Of a stretch of DNA of 64,000 bases, positions 19,561 through 29,145 are shown piece by piece. Position 1 is the stretch's first letter, and the number at the start of each line of letters is the position of its first letter. Source of the stretch: Hyphomicrobiaceae bacterium (lineage in GTDB: Bacteria; Pseudomonadota; Alphaproteobacteria; Rhizobiales; Hyphomicrobiaceae). Below the pieces are notes generated by a model. That model had not been told where the DNA came from. It was given only the letters and a program-made list of their open reading frames with translations, and ran no database searches. A program made the position numbers and the translations under genes. The DNA lies in the NCBI GenBank assembly GCA_022842785.1, contig JALHOW010000004.1:186001-250000 (forward strand). The letters are read 5' to 3'.

Positions 19561-20625
19561 ATGACGCGTGCACCGCACCTGAGCCGCCGCGAGTTTGCTG
19601 CGCTAGTGGCCGGAGTTGCCCTGCCTGTGGGTGTTCCTGCATTCGCCGGCGCGACCTCGACAGCAAGTGGGTCGGGGATCGCCATGCGCAAAGCGGCGGT
19701 TGCCCTGGTATTCGGCGTGCGCACTGAATTGCGCGATCGGCTCACATTCTCCTTCGGCGCGCCCGAGCGTCATCGCTGGACGTACGTACCCGGCCGCCGC
19801 GACGGTCTCACACTTGACGACATGACGAGCGCCGAGCGCGAGCCTGCCATGGCGCTGCTCGCCGCGTCGCTCAGCCGCTCGGGCCTCGAGAAGGCGACGG
19901 GCGTGATGAAGCTCGCTGCCGTGCTCAAGGACTTGCGCAGCTTCGGCCGAGGCGCTGGCGCGTACGCATTCGCCGTGTTCGGGGATCCGGAGAAAGATGG
20001 CCCCTGGGGCTGGCGCGTCGAGGGCCATCATCTCTCGCTGAATTTTACAGCGTTGGGCGATCGGGTGATCTCGGCGACGCCGCACTGCGTGTGCGCCGAT
20101 CCCATGGTGGTGACCGAGGGCCTGCACTCAGGCCTCGCACCTATCGAGCGCGAGGACTACATCGGCCGCGATCTCGTGCGAAACCTCGATGAAGAGCAGC
20201 TCGCGCGCACGCGCCGCGCCGGCGACGTGCCGAACAACGTGCGCGCAGGACCGCAGCGTGCCGAGGTCGCAGCGGAACCTGGCGGCATTGCCTTTCCCGA
20301 GCTGAGCGACGAAACGCAGCGCCACCTCATGCTCGGCATTGCCGAAACCTACATCTCGAATTTACCGCATGATCTCGCGCACGCGCACATGGCGCGGCTT
20401 GAAGGCGCGGCGCGCGATACCTTTCGCTTCGAGTGGGCGGGCGGCTTCGGAACGAACGACCTGCACTATTATCGCCTGCACGGCCCTACGCTCTCGATCG
20501 AGTATGCGACGCGCCAGCTCGCGAGCCACGTGCACACACTCTGGCGCGAACCTGGGAATGACTTCGGCCGTGCGGCGCTGGCTGCTGCCGGCGAGCAGCA
20601 TCCCCTTCCGCCCGAGAGTGCCTGA
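19561..20625 (+). CDS. DUF3500 domain protein with Tat-like signal
   Basis: This 354-aa protein begins with SRREFAALVAG, a twin-arginine-type export signal followed by a hydrophobic stretch ending AFAGA. The body fits DUF3500: WGWRVEGHHLSLNFTALG in the middle, FEWAGG and IEYATRQL plus HVHTLWREPGNDFG near the end. The function of the family is unknown; the many histidines could bind metal. It is alone on this strand, between the redoxin terminator and a convergent gene only 5 bp away. Confidence 0.8.
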   Translation: MTRAPHLSRREFAALVAGVALPVGVPAFAGATSTASGSGIAMRKAAVALVFGVRTELRDRLTFSFGAPERHRWTYVPGRRDGLTLDDMTSAEREPAMALLAASLSRSGLEKATGVMKLAAVLKDLRSFGRGAGAYAFAVFGDPEKDGPWGWRVEGHHLSLNFTALGDRVISATPHCVCADPMVVTEGLHSGLAPIEREDYIGRDLVRNLDEEQLARTRRAGDVPNNVRAGPQRAEVAAEPGGIAFPELSDETQRHLMLGIAETYISNLPHDLAHAHMARLEGAARDTFRFEWAGGFGTNDLHYYRLHGPTLSIEYATRQLASHVHTLWREPGNDFGRAALAAAGEQHPLPPESA

Positions 20626-20630
20626 AGACT

Positions 20631-21452
20631 TCAGCTCTTCTCGCGGTTGTCGCGCGCGGTACCGATCTCGATCGCGCCACGCGCAGCCATCTCCGCTTCG
20701 ACGAGGATCAGATAGCGGCGCAGGTCACGGATGTCGTCGAGCAGGGGTTCTGCTCGCCTATCCGCCACGATGTGCTGAAAGAGATTGTGCCGCTGGGCAC
20801 CGGGCGCATCCGCGGTGGCTGTGATCTCGCTCGATACCCGCTGCTCGATGCGATCGAACTTCCGCGCGAGCATCATGAACGCGCCGATACCGCCGCGGCG
20901 CTTCCAGCTGCTGCCGTATGCCCGCTCCTTTTCTTCGATGTTCGCGACGTCACCATCCGCGAGCACCTGAAGCTGATCGAGATAGCCGCGTCCGCTGTCC
21001 TCGGCATTCGCCGCCTCGCGCGCGGCGATCTCGGCCTCGGCCAGCATGAGATAGCGGCGCAGATCGCGCACATCGTCGATGAAGCCGTCACTCTTCGTGT
21101 CAGCCGCGATGTGCTCGAAGATGTCGTAGGGCGTGGCGCTCAACGAGCCCGCAACGTCGTCGCGACTGGTTGCGAGGCGCTTCTCGACGCGATCCCACTT
21201 GCGCGCGAGCATGTTGAAGGTATCGACGCCACCGCGACGCTTCCAGCTGTTGCCGTAGGACTTCTCGGCATTCTTGAGACCACGCACGTCGCTCTCGGCA
21301 ACGGCGCGCAAGTGATCGAGATAGGACGGACCGCTATCAGCGCTGCTCTCTCCGGCGTCATCGAGCAGAGCCGCCAGTCGCTTCAGCGTCGCGAGATCAC
21401 TGGCTGCGATCCGATCGAGCAGAGCCTTGCGCTGCACATCGTCACTCGTCAC
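20631..21452 (-). CDS. Duplicated Nmad1/DUF1599-like protein (nucleotide-modification associated)
   Basis: This 273-aa protein is two copies of one about 105-residue unit. Copy 1 (about 44-145) and copy 2 (about 157-259) share YLD-L-ADV..., YG-SWKRRGG, MLARK-DR-E, F-HI-AD and DD-RDLRRYL-L-EAE. The SWKRRGG/MLARKxDR pattern resembles Nmad1 (DUF1599), a domain reported with DNA base-hypermodification genes in phages. GTG start with AAGAGG upstream. It begins 10 bp after the thymidylate-synthase-like gene and is the last of the three-gene operon. Assignment to Nmad1 is from memory; enzymatic role unknown. Confidence 0.65.
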   Translation of the reverse strand: MTSDDVQRKALLDRIAASDLATLKRLAALLDDAGESSADSGPSYLDHLRAVAESDVRGLKNAEKSYGNSWKRRGGVDTFNMLARKWDRVEKRLATSRDDVAGSLSATPYDIFEHIAADTKSDGFIDDVRDLRRYLMLAEAEIAAREAANAEDSGRGYLDQLQVLADGDVANIEEKERAYGSSWKRRGGIGAFMMLARKFDRIEQRVSSEITATADAPGAQRHNLFQHIVADRRAEPLLDDIRDLRRYLILVEAEMAARGAIEIGTARDNREKS

Positions 21453-21462
21453 GACCGACCTC

Positions 21463-22521
21463 TTATTCCGCGGCGACGCTCACGCGCGCCTGCCAGCGCC
21501 GCTCGAGCCACTCGCGTGCGGCGCGCTGCCAGTCCGTGGCCGCGCAGCGATCGACCCAGGCAAGTGCCGCCGCGCGATCCTTGCGCTTGTAGGCGAACCA
21601 GCTGTTATGGATCGGTGTCGCAACGCGCATGAAATAGGGATTGCGCTCATCGCCGCGCGCCATCGCGGCATCCCACTGCTCGAGGGTCAGTGCATCTGGC
21701 GGATTGTCGAGCCAGTGGAAGAGATCCGCGTCGAAGTTTTCAGGATCGCCGACGAGCGGATAGACGGCGACCGCGCCCAGCGCATAAGGATCACCATCGT
21801 CCTCGAAGCGGTCGCCGATGCCGCTGATCTTCGACCACGTGTCCTCGTACGCGTGATAGCTGTCGCTCATCTGGCGATAGACGCCCGCCTCGACGCCGAT
21901 CCGCGCCGCCATGTATTCGAGCAGGATCGAGAAGTGCACGGCATTGGCGCCGTAGCAGCCCCAGATGATGTCGTTCGAGCGGTTCGAGACGGTCATGTTC
22001 AACTTACCGGCGCGCACCTTGAACATCGCCTGCGTGTTGCAGGCGAGATCCTTGCTCGCGACGCCGAGATCGGCTTCCGCATCCCAGATCTGCAGGACTG
22101 CGCGGCGGCTGTCGGGATCCTTGCGCAGAAGCTCGACGATGGTCGTGAGTTGATCGCGATAAGGCCGCCCATAGGCCTTCGATAGATCGAACTGCTGGCG
22201 CCAGCGATAGCCGTAGGCGGCGTTGAACACGACGCCGTCGTCGGAGTAGGTGGCCATGCGCTGATTGAAACGCGCGAGCCACGCGACGTCATTGCGCCCA
22301 GCCAGCATCCAAAGCGCTTCCAGCAGATGGAAGTACGGGTTCGCGTCGCGCACGCCATCGAAGAGCACGCGCTCGAGCGGTCGCTCGTAAACCGTGCAGA
22401 CGGGCTCGGGGTACTCGATGGTGCTACCCGCGCGACTCGCCTGAACGAGCCCGCCTTGCTTCATGAGCTCGGCACCCTTGACGACCGCGTCATTCACATT
22501 CCGGGCTTGGACGACCTTCAT
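21463..22521 (-). CDS. Thymidylate-synthase-family protein (possible deoxyuridylate hydroxymethylase)
   Basis: This 352-aa protein has the thymidylate-synthase core but is distant from ThyA. Aligned by eye it keeps W71, the phosphate-binding pair R139-R140 (DPDSRR), the nucleophile C161 (DLACNT instead of the usual PCH), R181-S182, D184, an Asn near 193 and H223/Y225. The Cys-His pair of ThyA is Cys-Asn. The Asn suggests uracil rather than cytosine as base. Relatives in phages make 5-hydroxymethyl-dUMP as the first step to hypermodified thymine. Its start overlaps the upstream hypermodification-like gene by 4 bp. Whether it methylates or hydroxymethylates is unknown. Confidence 0.75.
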   Translation of the reverse strand: MKVVQARNVNDAVVKGAELMKQGGLVQASRAGSTIEYPEPVCTVYERPLERVLFDGVRDANPYFHLLEALWMLAGRNDVAWLARFNQRMATYSDDGVVFNAAYGYRWRQQFDLSKAYGRPYRDQLTTIVELLRKDPDSRRAVLQIWDAEADLGVASKDLACNTQAMFKVRAGKLNMTVSNRSNDIIWGCYGANAVHFSILLEYMAARIGVEAGVYRQMSDSYHAYEDTWSKISGIGDRFEDDGDPYALGAVAVYPLVGDPENFDADLFHWLDNPPDALTLEQWDAAMARGDERNPYFMRVATPIHNSWFAYKRKDRAAALAWVDRCAATDWQRAAREWLERRWQARVSVAAE

Positions 22522-23450
22522 GCGGCAACACCCTCATACTTGGCCCTGGGGCGGCCCTCTCCGTTGGCGACTCGGAGATACTTGTCCGTCTCGCAGAGCG
22601 AATGCTCGACCTCGCGAAGCTCGAGCGGCGGGACGAAGTCCGGCAGGCACGTTCTCGACATCTCGAGCAGCTCGCGCATTTCCTCGAGCGCCTGCGTCTG
22701 CGTCAGAGACTTCTTATATGGGCGACCGTGCAGGCGGTGCAATCCGCGGATCGCCCCCGGCCCGGCCACCGCCCATGTGTTGATGTCCGGTGCATTGCGC
22801 AAATAGCGCGTGTGGCGAAGATCAGTCACCACCTCGTAGGCCATGAAGTCCCCCCAGCCGCGGAACTGGCGCAACCACGTGTGCACCTCCTGCATGGTGG
22901 GTTGCCGGCCGTTGGCAAACATGGCGTCGAACTCATGACGCGCGTCCCAAAGCGCGCCCACGACGATATGCGCCGTGTACTCAGGCTTTGCCATGCCGGC
23001 GAACTCGCCCGACGGCGCACTGATCATGTAGGCGCCCGTATAGACCTTCTCACCACGCGCCTTGCGCGCTTCGAGCGCCGCGCGGATGGCCTTGGCATCG
23101 TACGTACGCTCGGGAAACCCGACCTCCTCGAGCGTCTCCGGCCAGTTCACCTGGCGCGCGAGGCACATCGAAATCCAAAGCTGCGGGTTGTCTGCATAGG
23201 GCTCACGCCATTTCTCGCGCACCCACACGGTGACCTTGTCGAGCTCGCGAAAAACATTGCAGAAGCTGTATGTCTGCAAGATCTCGTCCTGCGTCCACGG
23301 GGCTTTCTCGCCTGCGGCCTTCTTGAGATAAATGCGATGGCGTTCGGTGATCCAATCCCAAAAGGGCTGTGCGTTCAGTGCCACGATGCGCTCGCTCTCG
23401 AGTGTTGTGTGCGGCCTGTCCGCGTCCCCGAACACTACGGAGACCAGCAA
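22518..23450 (-). CDS. Putative DNA base hypermodification protein (HMUDK-helical / aGPT-PPlase-like)
   Basis: Up to 310 aa, beginning at TTG 23450 or more probably further in, for example GTG 23384, since homology-like sequence starts at about residue 27. Segments FWDWITERHRIYLKK, PWTQDEILQTYSFCNVFREL, FRGWGDFMAYEVVTDLRHT, GPGAIRGLHRLHG and EVEHSLCETDKYLRVANGEG are those I associate with the helical domain of 5-hmdU DNA kinases and the alpha-glutamyl/putrescinyl-thymine pyrophosphorylase (amino acid:DNA transferase) families of hypermodifying phages. There is no P-loop, so it is not the kinase. First gene of an operon with the thymidylate-synthase homologue and the Nmad1-like gene. Confidence 0.65.
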   Translation of the reverse strand: MLVSVVFGDADRPHTTLESERIVALNAQPFWDWITERHRIYLKKAAGEKAPWTQDEILQTYSFCNVFRELDKVTVWVREKWREPYADNPQLWISMCLARQVNWPETLEEVGFPERTYDAKAIRAALEARKARGEKVYTGAYMISAPSGEFAGMAKPEYTAHIVVGALWDARHEFDAMFANGRQPTMQEVHTWLRQFRGWGDFMAYEVVTDLRHTRYLRNAPDINTWAVAGPGAIRGLHRLHGRPYKKSLTQTQALEEMRELLEMSRTCLPDFVPPLELREVEHSLCETDKYLRVANGEGRPRAKYEGVAA

Positions 23451-23586
23451 CAGGCAGACTCGCTTTGAAGACTCTAGGCCGCGCTCATGACATTGACCAC
23501 CGCACTTGGGGGCTTATGCACCTTTAGCGTCGGCCCGACCTGAACGGCACGTCATTCCTCTGCTTCGGGGCCCTGCTTCCGTCCAC

Positions 23587-24216
23587 TCAGGCTTCACGCT
23601 TGGCAGCGTCTTCGGCAATCTCTCGCACTCGCTTGAGATCCGCGAGCGCATTGTCCTTCAGCCGCGGGTTACGGAGGATGGCGGCCGGATGGTAGGTGGC
23701 GATCGTCGGAATGCTTCTGTATTCGAGGATCTGCCCGCGCAGCTTGGCCATGGGCTCCTTGCCCGGCAGCAGCCAGCGTGTCGCGTGCAGCCCGAGCGCA
23801 CAGAGCACGCGCGGCCTCAATGTCTCAAGCTGTGCGCGCAAGAAAGGTGCGCATGTCGCCACTTCCTCGGGACGCGGATCACGGTTCTGCGGCGGCCGGC
23901 ATTTCACGACATTGCAGATGTAGACGTCATCGCGTACGATGCCCGTCTCGGTGAGCAGGCGATCCAAAAGCTGCCCGGACCTGCCGACAAAAGGCAATCC
24001 TTGCGCATCCTCATTCGCGCCCGGCGCCTCACCGATGATGACGATGCCGGCGCGTGCACTACCCGAGCCGAACACGACCTTGGTGCGCGTCTCGGCCAAT
24101 ACGCAGGCCGTGCAGCGCGCAGCCTTGGCCGCAATGGGCTTCAGGGCAGTCTCGACCGCCGACACGGCATCATCCGAGCGAAGCGCGGTGAAGGGCTGCG
24201 GCGGTCGACTTTCCAC
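23587..24216 (-). CDS. Family-4 (Fe-S) uracil-DNA glycosylase
   Basis: This 209-aa protein has the GEAPGANED active-site motif (62-70), the second motif YHPAAILRNP near residue 175 and the four cysteines C35, C38, C106 and C122 that hold a [4Fe-4S] cluster in thermophile/alphaproteobacterial type-4 uracil-DNA glycosylases. It removes uracil from DNA. It begins 11 bp after the recA stop, so it is likely co-transcribed with recA. It is also followed on the same strand by a thymine-modification-like gene set, 136 bp on. Confidence 0.9.
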   Translation of the reverse strand: MESRPPQPFTALRSDDAVSAVETALKPIAAKAARCTACVLAETRTKVVFGSGSARAGIVIIGEAPGANEDAQGLPFVGRSGQLLDRLLTETGIVRDDVYICNVVKCRPPQNRDPRPEEVATCAPFLRAQLETLRPRVLCALGLHATRWLLPGKEPMAKLRGQILEYRSIPTIATYHPAAILRNPRLKDNALADLKRVREIAEDAAKREA

Positions 24217-24227
24217 GAGAGCTATAC

Positions 24228-25394
24228 CTAGCGCCGCGCGCCGCGAGCACCCTTGCGCGCCGCCGTCGCGTCCTCCGGATCAGGCAGCACGCCATCGGCG
24301 TCCGGTACCTCGGTGAGACCATCGGGATCGGGATCGTCAGTGGGCTCGGCCTGCAGCATCTGGTCGACGAGCAGTCCCGCGTTCTGGCGTATCGCGGCCT
24401 CGATCTCGGCAGCGACCTTGGGATTGTCCTTGAGAAACGTCTTGGCGTTCTCGCGGCCCTGGCCGATGCGGGTCCCCTTGAAGGATATCCAGGCGCCCGC
24501 CTTCTCGATGATGCCCGCCTTGACACCGAGATCGACAAGCTCGCCGGTCTTGGAGATGCCCTGACCGTACATGATGTCGAACTCGACCTGCTTGAAGGGC
24601 GGCGCGACCTTGTTCTTGACGATCTTGACCCGGGTCTGGTTGCCGACCGGCTCGTCACGCTCCTTGATCTGGCCAATGCGGCGGATGTCGAGGCGGACAG
24701 AGGAATAGAACTTGAGCGCGTTGCCGCCGGTTGTCGTCTCCGGATTGCCGAACATGACGCCGATCTTCATTCGGATCTGATTGATGAAGATCACCATGCA
24801 GCGCGACTTGGAGATGGTGCCGGTAAGCTTGCGCAGCGCCTGGCTCATAAGGCGCGCCTGCAAGCCGGGGAGACTGTCCCCCATCTCGCCTTCGAGCTCG
24901 GCCTTGGGAGTCAGTGCGGCGACCGAATCGACAACCAGCACATCGACGGCACCCGAGCGGACGAGCGTGTCGACGATCTCGAGCGCCTGCTCGCCCGAAT
25001 CCGGCTGCGAAATGAGGAGGTCCTCGACCTTCACACCAAGTTTGCGCGCGTAGACCGGGTCGACAGCGTGCTCGGCATCGACGAAGGCGCAGATGCCGCC
25101 GCGCCGCTGCGACTCCGCTACGACATGCAACGCCAGCGTCGTCTTGCCGGAGCTTTCGGGGCCGAAGATCTCGACGACGCGACCGCGCGGCAGGCCACCG
25201 ATCCCGAGGGCGATATCGAGCCCCAGTGAGCCGGTCGAGACCGCCTCCACATCGATGGACTTGTCGGTCGCACCGAGACGCATGATCGACCCTTTGCCGA
25301 ACTGCTTCTCGATGTGCGCCAGCGCTGCGTCCAGCGCCTTGTGCTTGTCCATATCGTCCCCCTCGACGACGCGTAAATGTCCAGCCGCCATGAT
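24228..25394 (-). CDS. recA: Recombinase RecA
   Basis: This 388-aa protein is RecA, the ATP-dependent strand-exchange protein and SOS co-protease. Visible are Walker A GPESSGKT, Walker [11 protein letters not shown]-type sequence, the DNA-binding loop 2 region [22 protein letters not shown] and the acidic C-terminus (DDPDPDG). The start at 25394 ([13 protein letters not shown]) matches alphaproteobacterial RecA, with AAGGGA upstream; in-frame codons further out are not used. Downstream lies the uracil-DNA glycosylase 11 bp away. The control region is short because a transposon sits 148 bp upstream. Confidence 0.97.
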
Positions 25395-25491
25395 GCCGTT
25401 TCCCTTATTCCACGAGTTGCAGATTCGAGCAATTAACCCTTCATGTACCATTTTTGTTCTCATTCCGCAAGCTGCGCTCACTACTTTGAAA

Positions 25492-25516
25492 GAACATCGA
25501 GAACGGACGAGTGTTC
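25492..25516. promoter_or_regulatory. GAAC/GTTC repeats in the recA control region (atypical SOS box?)
   Basis: GAAC occurs at 25492-25495 and 25501-25504, and GTTC at 25513-25516. The alphaproteobacterial SOS box is GTTC-N7-GTTC (period 11). Here the direct copies have period 9 and the outer pair is an inverted GAAC-N8-GTTC. A LexA site is therefore possible but not canonical. Confidence 0.3.
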
Positions 25517-25533
25517 CAGCAATGTTTTCGTTG

Positions 25534-25542
25534 CGCGGGCCA
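25534..25542. repeat. Left target-site duplication of the transposon
   Basis: CGCGGGCCA lies directly outside the left inverted repeat. The matching 9-mer directly outside the right end, 29769-29777, is GGCGGGCCA, identical in eight of nine bases. Such 8-10-bp duplications are the hallmark of IS1-type insertion. Confidence 0.75.
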
Positions 25543-25563
25543 GGTGGTGTCTCAGTTTGAAAT
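25543..25563. repeat. Left terminal inverted repeat of the transposon
   Basis: The inner 17 bases, GTGTCTCAGTTTGAAAT (25547-25563), are an exact reverse complement of 29748-29764; the outer four bases match except one (GGTG versus GGTA). The first passenger gene ends two bases inside it. Confidence 0.9.
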
Positions 25564-25564
25564 T

Positions 25565-26287
25565 TCAGAAGACAGCTTTGGGCGGCGGGGCAATGTTGGG
25601 CCATCGTTCAGCAATAGTCGCGCAGGCGGCTAGCATGTTGGTGTAGCGTCGCACAGCGTCTCCCGGTGCCGCGTAGGACAACCCGGCGTAAGCGTCGATT
25701 GTTATGCAAAGCCTCTGTTCAGGATCGGCCATGTCCTCGCGGGTGGCGCCCAAGTACCCAAACACGAACGCCGCCTGCCAAAGCGCGGCCTCGGCGTTGG
25801 CAGCTTTGCCCTTGGCGTATCGCAGAACACCGGCACCAACACGGATCTTGTTGGTTCGCGTGACGCGACGGAGGCGGAATTGAATGTCTGGGTTGATCTT
25901 GACGCCGTTAGCATTGAGTGGAACGGCGGGCCCTGGAGCCAATCGCTCCGCGTCTGGAAACTCGATCGTGTCTTGGATGTCGGCGAACCGCTCGATGTAG
26001 TCGGCGTTGTGATCAAAGAGGTCTCGGTCAAAGTCATCGTCGGCCATTCGCCCGCGCAATTCGTCGGCGGCATCGCGAAGCGGCGAGGTGTCATCGCGGC
26101 CAGCACGAATGAATTTGGACACGGCCAGCTTGGCCTCAGTGTGCTGCATGACGCGGGCAATGGGGCGGAACTTCGAGTCTCGGACGATCGTTCTCTGTCT
26201 GACCTGCGAAGCGATCATGTACTCGGCCAAATCGCGGGCTGAGATTGTTGGGTTCTTAACGAGTCGGTGTGTCTTCTTCTCTGACAT
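25565..26287 (-). CDS. Transposon passenger, hypothetical 240-aa protein
   Basis: No family is recognised. The protein is soluble and charged, without signal peptide or membrane segment. The N-terminus ([27 protein letters not shown]) and the middle [27 protein letters not shown] look helical, and the C-terminal part is alpha-helical with several aromatics. It lies directly inside the left end of the transposon and diverges from a 75-aa gene at 26311. Its lower-GC codon use agrees with transfer. A role as an element-specific regulator or as cargo is possible but unsupported. Confidence 0.6.
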
Positions 26288-26310
26288 GGATGCCGCTCCG
26301 GAGCAGTAAT

Positions 26311-26538
26311 ATGGATGATCTGTACTTCAGCGCGCCCATCGACAACGAAAGGACGCTTTGTCTGGCGCCGATAACTGAGCGCCGCAGGGCAATGTCTTCT
26401 CAGCAAATTGACGACCCGAGCGGGTACTTCTTGTACGAACTCACTGGTTCCGGCGAATCGGCGCGCGTCGAAATAATCGCGCGGATTTTATCAGAAGACG
26501 CGGTTCACCGCTTACGCGATATGCTCAAGCTGGATTAG
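26311..26538 (+). CDS. Transposon passenger, hypothetical 75-aa protein
   Basis: The ATG at 26311 has GGAG seven bases upstream. The protein (MDDLYFSAPIDNER..., then YFLYELTG and VEIIARILSEDAVHRLRDML) has a beta-rich start and a helical end and no recognisable motif. It is the only rightward gene in the element; its last 14 bp overlap the 3' end of the convergent transposase gene. Divergent promoters with the 240-aa gene fit in the 23-bp gap plus its 5' parts. Confidence 0.55.
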   Translation: MDDLYFSAPIDNERTLCLAPITERRRAMSSQQIDDPSGYFLYELTGSGESARVEIIARILSEDAVHRLRDMLKLD

Positions 26539-27412
26539 CTGGGGCTTTCTTCTTGTACGTCTTCGGGCGGCCCGGCTTCGGCGCTGCGGCATCTATCAGC
26601 GCAACAACATCCTCAAAGCTCATGAGTGCCGTGGTGATGCCAGCGGCCATGGCGGGCGTCGTGCGCAGCGTCTTATGGATGCGGATCCAGTTGTACCAAA
26701 CCGTGTAGAGCGCGACCATGTTGACGTGGCTGTCGAACTTCTTCGAGAAGGCATTCGTCAGGCGCGTGAAGCGGCGGTTGTGCATCCGCAGCGTGAGGTT
26801 CGAGCGCTCCACGTAGCTGGTGCTAATGTCCTCGGGGCGCGGGCGGCCACTGATGCGAACCTTCGTGGCGCCGACGCACTCCGGCGGGCTGTAGCGGCGG
26901 TCGCCGTCCGGTGCGGGGCCGTACTTCTTGACGAGCTGGGCATAGTCGACAAAGCCGCCGAATGCTGCGTCGACCGCGTCGACATAGACCCGAAGACCAT
27001 CGGACGTAACTTGCGTGCGGCGCCCGATGCGGGCCGACACGTCGCGCATGAAAACGTGTGCGCTGTGCGCATCCCGATCGCCAACAAGCCAGCTCACAAT
27101 CAGCTTGCTGTCAGCATCCAGCGCCGTCCACGTCCATACATCGCCAGCGAAATCAACGGGCGCCTTCATCGTCGCGACGTTCTTCTGCTTGGCGGCGCAG
27201 AAGGACCAGATTTCATCGACCTGCACCCGGCGCGAGCGGAGGTCGCGGACCTTCTCATCGTGGAAGGTCATGCAGACCTTGCCCGCGTCCTCAAGGATCT
27301 TGGCGACCGTATTGATCGACACGTCGCAGACCCGAGAGATTGAACGCATCGAAGACCCCTCGCAGAGCATGGAGAGGATTTGGACACGCTTATGGGTGGG
27401 CAGCTTGTTCAT
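26525..27412 (-). CDS. IS1-type DDE transposase
   Basis: This 295-aa protein has an N-terminal helix-turn-helix (RSISRVCDVSINTVAKILED), the first catalytic Asp in VQVDEIWSF, the second in TSDGLRVYVDAVDAAFG, and the late Glu region STSYVERSNLTLRMHNRRF. The sequences DYAQLVKKYG and RLTNAFSKK are hallmarks of a widespread IS1-related transposase group. The start at 27412 (MNKLPTHKRVQIL) matches relatives; a frame extension to 27451 exists. It is in one reading frame, with no IS1-style frameshift. It lies within the 4.2-kb element defined by inverted ends, so it is likely its mobilising enzyme. Confidence 0.85.
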   Translation of the reverse strand: MNKLPTHKRVQILSMLCEGSSMRSISRVCDVSINTVAKILEDAGKVCMTFHDEKVRDLRSRRVQVDEIWSFCAAKQKNVATMKAPVDFAGDVWTWTALDADSKLIVSWLVGDRDAHSAHVFMRDVSARIGRRTQVTSDGLRVYVDAVDAAFGGFVDYAQLVKKYGPAPDGDRRYSPPECVGATKVRISGRPRPEDISTSYVERSNLTLRMHNRRFTRLTNAFSKKFDSHVNMVALYTVWYNWIRIHKTLRTTPAMAAGITTALMSFEDVVALIDAAAPKPGRPKTYKKKAPANPA

Positions 27413-27457
27413 GCCCACAATATATGACACCTTATGCTTAGCGTCAAGCATGAGAGT

Positions 27458-28540
27458 TCATTTTAGTACTGTGAATTTTCGCGGCCTGGGCAGTTCCTCG
27501 TCAGCGAGGCCATAAAATTCTTTAAGTTCAGATGGATGCACGCAGAATAGCTTCGCAATCTCCATTACGGTGTAACCAAGAGCGGTGAGGTGAACTTCGA
27601 AAACTCGCCGCAAAATTTCTGGCATTTCAATTGGGATATCGAGCTCGGGTGGCTCTCGAAGCCTGTAACCGCGAGCGCTGATCTGCTTCCATAAATATGT
27701 ATATTGATGTTCGGAGACCGCCTTTTGCCGACGCGACTCCATCAAGAGCGCTGCCATTGAAACCCGCCATTCGGGCTTCAGAGCTGCCAGAACAGAAAGA
27801 TCAATTTTCTTCCCTACAAAATAGGGGCGTATATCATTCGGTGGCATCAGAAGAGCCACAGCAAAAGCGTTCGCTTCTTGCTCCATGTCAGGCGTCGGGA
27901 ACCTGTGCATGATCAGATGCCCGATCTCATGAGCTAGCGTGAACCTGAGGCGATCGCCCGGTTGTTCGCTATTCAAGACAATGAGAGGCGGCATCCCCGG
28001 CACCGCAAAGGTGACGCCGCTGATGGACGCACCGTGAAGTGAGGAATGACATACGATGATGCCAGCCTTCTCCGCCAGTGAAGTCAGATTTTGCAGGGGC
28101 CCCGATGGCACTCGCCAGTGCGCCCGCACAAGGCCGGCAATGGCCGCAGGACTTTGATACTCCTCAATGTCCAAGCGGGGCAGTTGGTTAGTGTTGGCAA
28201 TTTCTGCGCCTTCGAGCAATCGGCGCATGTGCATCACTCTTAGATTGAGTTCTGCAACGACGGCATCCATCTCGCGTGCCAGAACATCGGACTTGCGGCG
28301 CCACATAGGATGAACGCTTACCGGAGCGCCATAAACAGGGTCTCGTTGACCAAAGAACTCGACGGGGAGTCGATACGCTGCGGAAGCTTTCGCGGCGAGA
28401 TCATCGCGAAATTCGACAACGCCATTCTCGGTGCGAGACAGCAACGATTGATCCATGCCGAGACGCTTGGCGGCGTCGGTTTGGTTGAATCCACGTAGCT
28501 GCCGCGCAAGGCGCAGCATGTCGCTATTAAGTAGCATCAC
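27458..28540 (-). CDS. XRE helix-turn-helix and ImmA/IrrE metalloprotease protein
   Basis: This 360-aa protein joins an N-terminal XRE HTH (residues about 8-62: MLRLARQLRGFNQTDAAKRLG, then MDQSLLSRTENG) to an ImmA/IrrE (COG2856) zinc-protease domain with HEIGH near residue 205 and the third ligand Glu downstream in MEQEANAFAVALLMP. Such proteins act as antitoxins or as repressors cleaved under stress, as in ImmR/ImmA and the CapH/CapP regulators. It is 2 bp after a 200-aa gene, so they are an operon, carried inside the transposon. The partner's function is unknown. Confidence 0.87.
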   Translation of the reverse strand: MMLLNSDMLRLARQLRGFNQTDAAKRLGMDQSLLSRTENGVVEFRDDLAAKASAAYRLPVEFFGQRDPVYGAPVSVHPMWRRKSDVLAREMDAVVAELNLRVMHMRRLLEGAEIANTNQLPRLDIEEYQSPAAIAGLVRAHWRVPSGPLQNLTSLAEKAGIIVCHSSLHGASISGVTFAVPGMPPLIVLNSEQPGDRLRFTLAHEIGHLIMHRFPTPDMEQEANAFAVALLMPPNDIRPYFVGKKIDLSVLAALKPEWRVSMAALLMESRRQKAVSEHQYTYLWKQISARGYRLREPPELDIPIEMPEILRRVFEVHLTALGYTVMEIAKLFCVHPSELKEFYGLADEELPRPRKFTVLK

Positions 28541-28542
28541 AC

Positions 28543-29145
28543 CTACTGCTTATCGTCAGATGCTTCGTCGGCTTTGGGCTGGCGAGGAACAACGACGGGC
28601 GGATTGGTGTCTGGTGAAACGGGCGCCGTCGGGAACGGAATAACATCCGCAGCTGGCGCAGCCCTGTCGAGCGGATAAGCCCAGAGCCGGGATCTTTGGT
28701 TGCGTGCCACGACGGCGACTTCTGAAAGATCGATACCCAGGTCATTCAAGCTGTAACAGACCTCAACCTTCATGATCTCGGGGACTAGGCCGGGGATCTC
28801 GCGATGCGGATCAATGAAATCAAGAACGGCTTGGGTAAGGATATTGGAGCCGACGCCTTTGGCGTTACCTTTTTTGAAGCGCAATAGCACCTCATCCTTG
28901 AATAGAAACTGAACCGTCTGCTTTTTTGCGATGACGTGAATGTTAGGGTCGTCGGCGAATTCCTCGAGAGCGCGTCGCGCTATGAAATCAAAAACGATGA
29001 CCGCGCGGACGCGTGGTAGGAACACCCATTTGGCCTTGCCAGGAGTGTCCAGCCATTCCTTCCAAGCGTCATCCACCACGCGCCGAAGACGGGTATGGAA
29101 GTCTTGAAGTACTGAACGGACCTCATCTTCTGTCGGCGCGGGCAT
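28543..29145 (-). CDS. Transposon passenger, 200-aa partner of the XRE-ImmA/IrrE protein
   Basis: No family is recognised with certainty. The first 150 residues are a compact alpha/beta domain (VRAVIVFDFIARRALEEFAD, VQFLFKDEVLLRFKKGNAKG, KVEVCYSLNDLGIDLSEVAVVARNQRSRLW), and the last 40 are a Pro/Asp-rich, disordered tail. Proteins of this size often precede XRE-ImmA/IrrE genes, and the two may form a toxin-antitoxin-like or defence pair; I infer that from arrangement only. The gap to the downstream gene is 2 bp. Confidence 0.6.
   Translation of the reverse strand: MPAPTEDEVRSVLQDFHTRLRRVVDDAWKEWLDTPGKAKWVFLPRVRAVIVFDFIARRALEEFADDPNIHVIAKKQTVQFLFKDEVLLRFKKGNAKGVGSNILTQAVLDFIDPHREIPGLVPEIMKVEVCYSLNDLGIDLSEVAVVARNQRSRLWAYPLDRAAPAADVIPFPTAPVSPDTNPPVVVPRQPKADEASDDKQ

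Follow-up and report, generated by a model that had tools for sequence, protein, structure and literature searches.

How can a bacterium supply the thymine of its DNA when its own thymidylate synthase gene seems to be gone? Cells are known to make thymidylate de novo with ThyA or ThyX. The question is raised by a 64,000-nt stretch of a Hyphomicrobiaceae genome (hereafter the window; assembly GCA_022842785.1, contig JALHOW010000004.1, positions 186,001 to 250,000 of the forward strand), which holds an operon of three phage-type genes: hel, a thymidylate synthase (TS)-fold gene and p273. Our comparisons showed that the trio is conserved together and constrained, and that canonical ThyA was not found in the genomes that carry it. 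The simplest account of the ThyA loss, the empty thyA site and the constraint on the trio is that a domesticated phage operon took the place of thyA. Our preferred reading, to which we give an even chance, is that this operon also provides the pyrimidine that pairs with A in the DNA of the cell, via 5-hydroxymethyl-dUMP.

The operon and the missing thyA

The operon comprises three minus-strand open reading frames (ORFs; 23450-22518, 22521-21463 and 21452-20631) of 310, 352 and 273 aa. The first two share 4 bp (22518-22521) and a 10-bp gap (21453-21462) precedes the third.

22518..23384, minus strand: gene 1 (hel), HMUDK_hel / aGPT-PPlase1-type, probably 288 aa; the ORF is open to 23450
21463..22521, minus strand: gene 2, TS-fold, predicted deoxyuridylate 5-hydroxymethylase, 352 aa
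20631..21452, minus strand: gene 3 (p273), fused tandem duplication of an all-helical phage unit, 273 aa, start GTG

The GC content of the operon is host-like (0.63-0.65), and 0/10 proteins scanned around the site were phage structural proteins. The ORF coordinates and these data bear out the original prediction, which had described three closely spaced same-strand genes on a chromosome, with host-like GC and no phage genes nearby. It had missed that the trio coincides with the loss of the cell's thymidylate synthase.

We surveyed 35 genome handles for ThyA and ThyX, judged by PF00303 and PF02511 profile matches, respectively; nine handles represent the six distinct cassette genomes, 20 are family members, one is the genus-mate G398 and five have other hel or hel + TS loci. 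Canonical ThyA was found in 0/6 cassette genomes versus 21/21 relatives searched without the cassette, and the PF00303 scores were 71-78 bits for the cassette TS and 412-433 bits for canonical ThyA. The genome of the window (G000, 98.97% complete) gave gene 2 as its sole PF00303 match (74 bits) and no PF02511 match, and five of the six cassette genomes had no PF02511 match. None of the 21 ThyA-bearing relatives carries the cassette; G152 has a distant hel, and in G274 and G368 a second PF00303 match belongs to a separate island, canonical ThyA being kept. ThyA or ThyX was also retained in the five genomes with hel alone or with hel and TS without p273 (G405, G407, G408, G409 and G410). In G398, thyA sits after SspB and two CAAX genes. 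It was missing from this ancestral SspB-CAAX site in the three cassette genomes examined (G000, G397 and G399), in which the aldolase-SDR-SspB-CAAX order continues to a GNAT gene and cysS. Clean evidence for ThyA loss thus comes from four species of a single genus and from a further, separate lineage. As a separate observation, folA is distant from the CAAX/thyA site in five genus genomes (L059, L061, L057, L074 and L063), the thyA keeper included, lying far off on the same contig in three and on other contigs in two; many family members have folA about 1 kb or less from thyA.

Four of the five genomes in the genus of the window carry gene 1; in those other than G000 it is 93-97% identical, with TS and p273 adjoining. 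A scan of genome contigs yielded 12 loci, whose gene calls were mechanical ORFs read by eye unless a family search is cited. The trio occurred in fixed order in six distinct genomes and three chromosomal settings, which argues for an association beyond chance and agrees with the grouping that the original prediction had proposed to check in relatives. Three genus loci (L010, L011 and L013) share the order recA-UDG-hel-TS-p273-DUF3500 (UDG, uracil-DNA glycosylase; L011 ends within DUF3500). L010 is from the strain Hyphomicrobium sp. CS1BSMeth3 and shows 94, 93 and 86% identity to the hel, TS and p273 of the window, respectively. The cassettes of a Hyphomonadaceae metagenome-assembled genome (MAG; L012) and an Alphaproteobacteria MAG (L015) stand in different chromosomal settings, with hel/TS/p273 identities of 72/69/62% and 46/78/66%, respectively. 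L014 and L018/L019 hold hel and TS and are phage-like by their ORFs (L018 clearly), and L016, L017 and L020 hold hel alone. L018 and L019, two contigs of an Anaerolinea MAG, carry phage-like hel, TS, polymerase and ribonucleotide reductase genes near those of phage M6 and are perhaps a binned phage. A dCTP deaminase-like gene (PF22769, 2.4e-15; L015:10856-11650) lies just downstream of the cassette of G406, the Alphaproteobacteria MAG.

The TS tree united the six cassette rows in one clade (100/97) among viral rows. Five cassette rows likewise formed one clade in the hel tree (100/99), and the L015 hel was placed elsewhere; since its TS lies in the cassette clade, hel appears to have been exchanged but kept. 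The p273 gene was found in 1/385 class genomes (G000 itself), and HMUDK_hel in 4/397 order genomes, namely G000 and three whose protein is of a distant subfamily (25-27% identical). Compared with three congeners, the ratio of nonsynonymous to synonymous substitution rates (dN/dS) was 0.028-0.047 for hel, 0.067-0.084 for TS and 0.085-0.099 for p273; recA (partial) gave 0.048-0.057, UDG 0.108-0.131, and DUF3500, tlpA and dsbD, set against two congeners, 0.127-0.177. All three operon genes are therefore under strong purifying selection, that on hel being at least as strong as on recA, and the low ratios of hel and p273 indicate that both matter to the cell.

Directly flanking the operon are recA, a family-4 UDG and DUF3500; an IS1-like transposase lies past recA.

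23385..23586, minus strand: 202 bp separating UDG from gene 1, likely operon promoter site, judged by position only
23587..24216, minus strand: family-4 uracil-DNA glycosylase (TIGR00758, 5e-64), flank, probably outside the operon
24228..25604, minus strand: recA (TIGR02012, 6.5e-171), flank, outside the operon
19561..20625, plus strand: DUF3500 gene (PF12006, 2.5e-73), flank, convergent, outside the operon

A sigma-70 consensus scan of 20500-23700 gave no promoter-like site. The UDG gene is syntenic in L010, L011 and L013 and had no tblastn match in the cassette loci L012 and L015. Beyond recA, at 25565-29145, lie the IS1-like transposase, a phrog_15813 protein, a 240-aa protein without assignment and an XRE/M78 gene matching PADLOC RmrA (3e-53); GC drops to 0.56-0.57 over 26-30 kb, and tblastn matched none of these genes in L010 or L013, both loci of the genus.

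Phage relatives and predicted activities

The original prediction had taken the genes for components of phage pathways leading from dUMP to hydroxymethyl-dU, and the HMUDK_hel, Thymidylat_synt and phrog matches of the operon support this. Gene 2 matched Pfam Thymidylat_synt at 1.9e-20 and phrog_5131 at 9.3e-114, and the NCBIfam thymidylate synthase models that it matched were all below cut-off. It retains the catalytic residues of the TS fold (Glu68, Tyr103, Arg139, Arg140, Cys161, Arg181, Asp184, His223 and Tyr225; residues were mapped to E. coli ThyA by hand). Three residues ahead of the catalytic Cys161 stands Asp158, found in 6/6 cassette rows, 142/142 viral rows (some from the same contigs) and 0/22 ThyA rows, which are gapped at this alignment column; the Cys-3 position of the ThyA motif is Leu in 21/22 rows, and the regex was misplaced in one of the 22. 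These ThyA rows are the 22 of 23 canonical loci recovered by the motif filter. The nucleophile motif reads DLACN in all six cassette rows. According to the excerpted text of PMC6400193, an Asp at Cys-3, where TS has Leu, activates water to give a hydroxymethyl product, with a Ser/Thr partner, and in T4 dCMP hydroxymethylase (dCH) the corresponding Asp drives hydroxylation. Asn193, at the E. coli ThyA N177 position, is kept in 6/6 cassette and 142/142 viral rows, which argues for dUMP rather than dCMP as substrate. Trp83 of E. coli TS is replaced by Tyr (Tyr92) in 6/6 cassette rows, the ThyA C-terminal tail is missing and the C-terminus is unrelated, and identity to three family ThyA proteins is 24-25%. 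The profile scores were 111 bits for MilA versus 72 bits for the best ThyA listed, and MilA, a CMP hydroxymethylase, is the best PDB relative. The nearest annotated relatives are from M6/YuA-type Pseudomonas phages, all <60% identical. The active site thus suggests 5-hydroxymethyl-dUMP as the product of gene 2. W80 was dropped as a hydroxymethylase marker, for T4 dCH keeps Trp at position 82 (PMC6400193, in the part seen; the equivalence to W80 of E. coli TS is our own mapping).

Gene 1, searched as the 310-aa ORF, matched PF18723 HMUDK_hel at 5.1e-55 (187 bits versus a curated cut-off of 25), in keeping with the family named in the original prediction, and phrog_2396 at 5.5e-70. All four sequences compared within the genus conserve the GTG at 23384, and the hel frames of L012 and L013 open at the equivalent GTG and not before; the start is probably this codon, giving 288 aa rather than the 310-aa ORF. 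With Pfam profiles only the helical domain was matched in gene 1, and no P-loop kinase domain. An ADDT assignment, for which the original prediction had proposed a profile search, did not hold up: there was no PF18724 or PF18746 (ADDT / aGPT-PPlase3) match at E up to 0.1, and the same library found both in L181. The protein was 43-49% identical to phage proteins among the 40 matches listed of 106, and its nearest annotated relatives, from Stenotrophomonas and Pseudomonas phages, are all <60% identical. Its AlphaFold2 (AF2) model has a pLDDT of 92, and helix-hairpin-helix (HhH) DNA glycosylases made up 29 of the 50 Foldseek rows listed (of 95), none significant (best E 0.28, prob 0.63). A PDB sequence search with hel or p273 gave no match at E up to 1.

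The halves of gene 3 are identical at 54/109 aligned residues, so the internal duplication described in the original prediction stands; its likeness to Nmad1 does not. Gene 3 did not reach the cut-off of any Pfam family (best E 0.038), and among 16 members of its family the best Pfam E value was 0.021, to an unrelated family, again with none over cut-off; PF07659 (DUF1599), which we take to be one family with Nmad1, had no match in 385 genomes including G000. Phrog_22490 (1.9e-11) and phrog_27321 were matched. The AF2 model has a pLDDT of 80 and no significant Foldseek match (best E 0.35), with trypanosome all-alpha dUTPases at ranks 2, 4, 9 and 10 (E 0.48 or worse). The unit-profile ORFs of viral loci and two phages were single units in 150/150 cases, which makes the fused duplicate a bacterial feature among the rows seen. 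Plasmids gave no p273 match; for TS they gave 23 records, all <60% identical and 22/23 with <80% coverage.

Viral contigs encode a gene 3 relative in 168 stretches and a gene 1 relative in 196. The searches were seeded with the window peptides, and the statistics cover the 80 best of the 168 and the 80 best of the 196 stretches, sets that share some contigs; the counts refer to loci 12 kb or longer (46 and 47, respectively). Five further modification profiles were applied: glycosyltransferase, kinase, aGPT-PPlase2, radical S-adenosylmethionine (rSAM) and pyridoxal phosphate (PLP), the last two built from one M6 sequence each, and kinase and aGPT-PPlase2 from two. Among the loci found by gene 3, hel and TS were also present in 45/46; the trio stood with none of the five profiles in 28/46, and 17/46 added the glycosyltransferase. 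Among those found by gene 1, 38/47 combined hel, glycosyltransferase, TS and unit, 4/47 had kinase and aGPT-PPlase2, and 0/47 were trio-only. Two trio-only loci (L110 and L121) have the cassette gene order including the 4-bp hel-TS overlap. The combination of hel, TS fold and unit is a phage module. A single-unit relative of gene 3 also lies inside a long hypermodification-type cluster of Pseudanabaena phage Pam3.

Two further features of the viral loci are recorded here. At L088:6980-7804 a TET-associated glycosyltransferase gene (PF20691, 2e-20; L088 only searched) separates hel from the TS-fold gene, with similar ORFs in L089, L119 and L148, and suggests glycosylated hydroxymethyl-dU DNA in such viruses. 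A methyltransferase-like gene stands directly ahead of hel in the trio-only loci L110:5215-6054, L121:3638-4477 and L094:4760-5599 (PF08241, 1.5e-5; only L110 tested).

Weighing the explanations

If the phage operon displaced thyA, gene 2 would convert dUMP and methylene-tetrahydrofolate (THF) to 5-hydroxymethyl-dUMP, cellular kinases would take it to the triphosphate, and polymerase would insert the hydroxymethyl nucleotide opposite A. Gene 1, whose predicted fold may resemble that of base-flipping HhH glycosylases, may act on hydroxymethyluracil in DNA, by editing or by part-conversion to thymine. Gene 3 may assist at the level of nucleotides, perhaps as an all-alpha dNTP pyrophosphatase removing dUTP or competing dTTP. 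In the chromosome, hydroxymethyluracil would stand in for some or all of the thymine, or serve as the route to it; with no other thymidylate source, the cell's DNA should either have hydroxymethyluracil or convert it to thymine there. We propose tentatively, with less than even confidence, that the chromosome is naturally composed of A, C, G and 5-hydroxymethyluracil (5hmU), most thymine being replaced or made from it in DNA, that the phage operon replaced ThyA in a Hyphomicrobium-like clade and separately in a lineage of Hyphomonadaceae, and that hel handles the hydroxymethyluracil. Such replacement appears tolerable in principle, since in E. coli given an SPO1-type pathway and carrying disruptions of thyA, deoA and trmA, 5hmU came to replace ~75% of T (Mehta 2016, as reported in the excerpt of PMC7435384). 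In phage phiW-14, hydroxymethyl-dUTP takes the place of dTTP in the nucleotide pool, and subsequent modification occurs within the DNA, according to the excerpted part of PMC5977210.

Several observations weigh against this account. Four of the six cassette genomes belong to one genus. G406 encodes a divergent ThyX-like protein (L056:1060-2139; 26.1 bits versus a cut-off of 24.8, whole ORF scanned) and is hence not a clean case. G398 is only 87% complete, which makes its lack of the cassette less sure, and there is no completeness figure for G402 or G406. The Ser/Thr partner expected near the catalytic Tyr (Ser94 in T4) is replaced in gene 2 by Ala101 and Ala102. Just before the nucleophile, Ala replaces Pro in 6/6 cassette rows only (Pro in 142/142 viral rows), and the chemistry of gene 2 may therefore have changed. 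The roles of hel and p273 are inferred from fold matches that are not significant (best E 0.28 and 0.35). Dihydrofolate reductase (DHFR) is present in 6/6 cassette genomes, as expected for a synthase that makes dihydrofolate (DHF), and is lacking in G408-G410, which have ThyX and no canonical ThyA. DHFR is also required for new folate. As a test of DHF-versus-THF chemistry it was set aside: found in all six cassette genomes, it is not decisive and is neutral to mildly unfavourable.

The strongest rival, which we consider rather unlikely, is that gene 2 reverted to an ordinary dTMP-making TS and so permitted the loss of thyA, with hel and p273 as accessories (for example, hel as a glycosylase-like repair enzyme for by-product hydroxymethyluracil and p273 as a pool cleaner). 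This would be the simplest account of thyA loss taken by itself, and the retained DHFR and the cassette-specific Pro-to-Ala change fit it. The active site speaks for a hydroxymethylase instead: Asp158, whose T4 dCH counterpart drives hydroxylation (PMC6400193, in the part seen), is kept in every cassette row, with Tyr at the Trp83 position and no ThyA tail. The constraint on hel, at least that on recA, is also above what a side function would suggest.

It is improbable, in our view, that the trio serves full hypermodification or defence, with hydroxymethyl-dU in host DNA decorated by enzymes encoded elsewhere for marking or against phages. Homologues of hel and TS do sit in phage hypermodification loci, and DefensePredictor lists 5-hydroxymethyluracil kinase and thymidylate synthase among the domains of newly validated E. 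coli defence units, not necessarily in one unit (PMC13092281, in the excerpt seen). G368 has a related island of TS, aGPT-PPlase3/ADDT and a PD-Lambda-2_B-like gene, and G274 a similar one. On the other hand, the glycosyltransferase, kinase, aGPT-PPlase2, rSAM and PLP profiles had no match in the window or the five cassette loci. The sole PADLOC match of the operon was a weak one, of gene 3 to CARF_HEPN (E 0.0037, 14 bits). Unlike a typical defence island, the locus occurs in 4/5 genus genomes, is syntenic where compared and evolves slowly, and defence leaves the thyA loss unexplained. The lack of a kinase match, obtained with the two-sequence profile, agrees with the original prediction that the 5-hmdU DNA kinase is missing; its suggestion of a partial pathway need not follow, for 28 of the 46 viral loci were themselves trio-only. 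For a kinase encoded elsewhere, M6 gp054 had no match in the G000 genome, in a search without a positive control whose empty answer shows nothing. The original observation is thus confirmed and its interpretation partly supported. The islands (L181:3950-7137 in G368 and L182:337-3353 in G274) combine a TS-fold gene and aGPT-PPlase3/ADDT with a PD-Lambda-2_B-like XRE/M78 gene and are a possible related defence system; the families were searched on L181 only, L182 being assigned by ORF likeness, and the L181 island adjoins an integrase-like ORF.

A phage relic or passenger without current role, in cells that use salvaged thymidine after an unrelated loss of thyA, is very hard to credit, despite the grouping of gene 2 with viral sequences, given the intact ORFs, dN/dS of 0.03-0.10 in all three genes and ThyA in 0/6 cassette genomes, including the separate lineage of the Hyphomonadaceae MAG G402.

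Comparison with known systems

Among phages, the M6/YuA-type cluster (Yuavirus; 5-NedU) has homologous hel (gp055, 43-45%) and TS (gp058, 47%) genes. It differs in placing them inside a longer cluster including gp051-gp054, which we take to be transferase, PLP, rSAM and kinase genes, and in that a p273 unit is missing from the 15 kb examined, whereas the cassette is a chromosomal set of three genes. Pelagiphages of the HTVC023P type share the TS + aG/PT-PPlase1 pair with the cassette, near PolA, and restriction protection has been proposed for it; the excerpt of PMC9599517 that describes the pair does not mention a third gene. They differ from the cassette in being phages with a single-copy unit gene and no cellular enzyme replaced.

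Among enzymes, T4 dCMP hydroxymethylase and MilA share with gene 2 the TS fold and the Asp at Cys-3, and have a dCMP-type Asp where gene 2 has Asn193. The SPO1 deoxyuridylate hydroxymethylase (dUH) likewise belongs to the TS fold. Gene 2 differs in being encoded by a cell, in whose genome no other ThyA-fold match was found, its activity being predicted. ThyA and ThyX occupy the same physiological slot, the cassette being present where ThyA is absent; gene 2 differs from ThyA in sequence (24-25% identical), in lacking the ThyA tail and Trp83, and in being accompanied by two constrained genes. A third, phage-derived gene set thus stands in the slot of ThyA in whole species. Even if gene 2 makes dTMP, an essential enzyme would have been replaced non-orthologously by a phage operon.

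Among the open-licence PMC papers listed, none was found to report cells with a hydroxymethylase in place of ThyA or ThyX. The closest parallel is the engineered 5hmU E. coli (Mehta 2016, via the excerpt of PMC7435384), in which thyA is likewise gone and a hydroxymethylase route is supplied. If the preferred reading is true, a small phage gene set sufficient for life on hydroxymethyluracil would have been isolated. What hel (aGPT-PPlase1) and the small unit protein do also becomes testable by simple complementation. The E. coli strain is a laboratory construct, whereas the cassette clade is a natural lineage, and if gene 2 makes hydroxymethyl-dUMP it would be the natural cellular counterpart of that strain.

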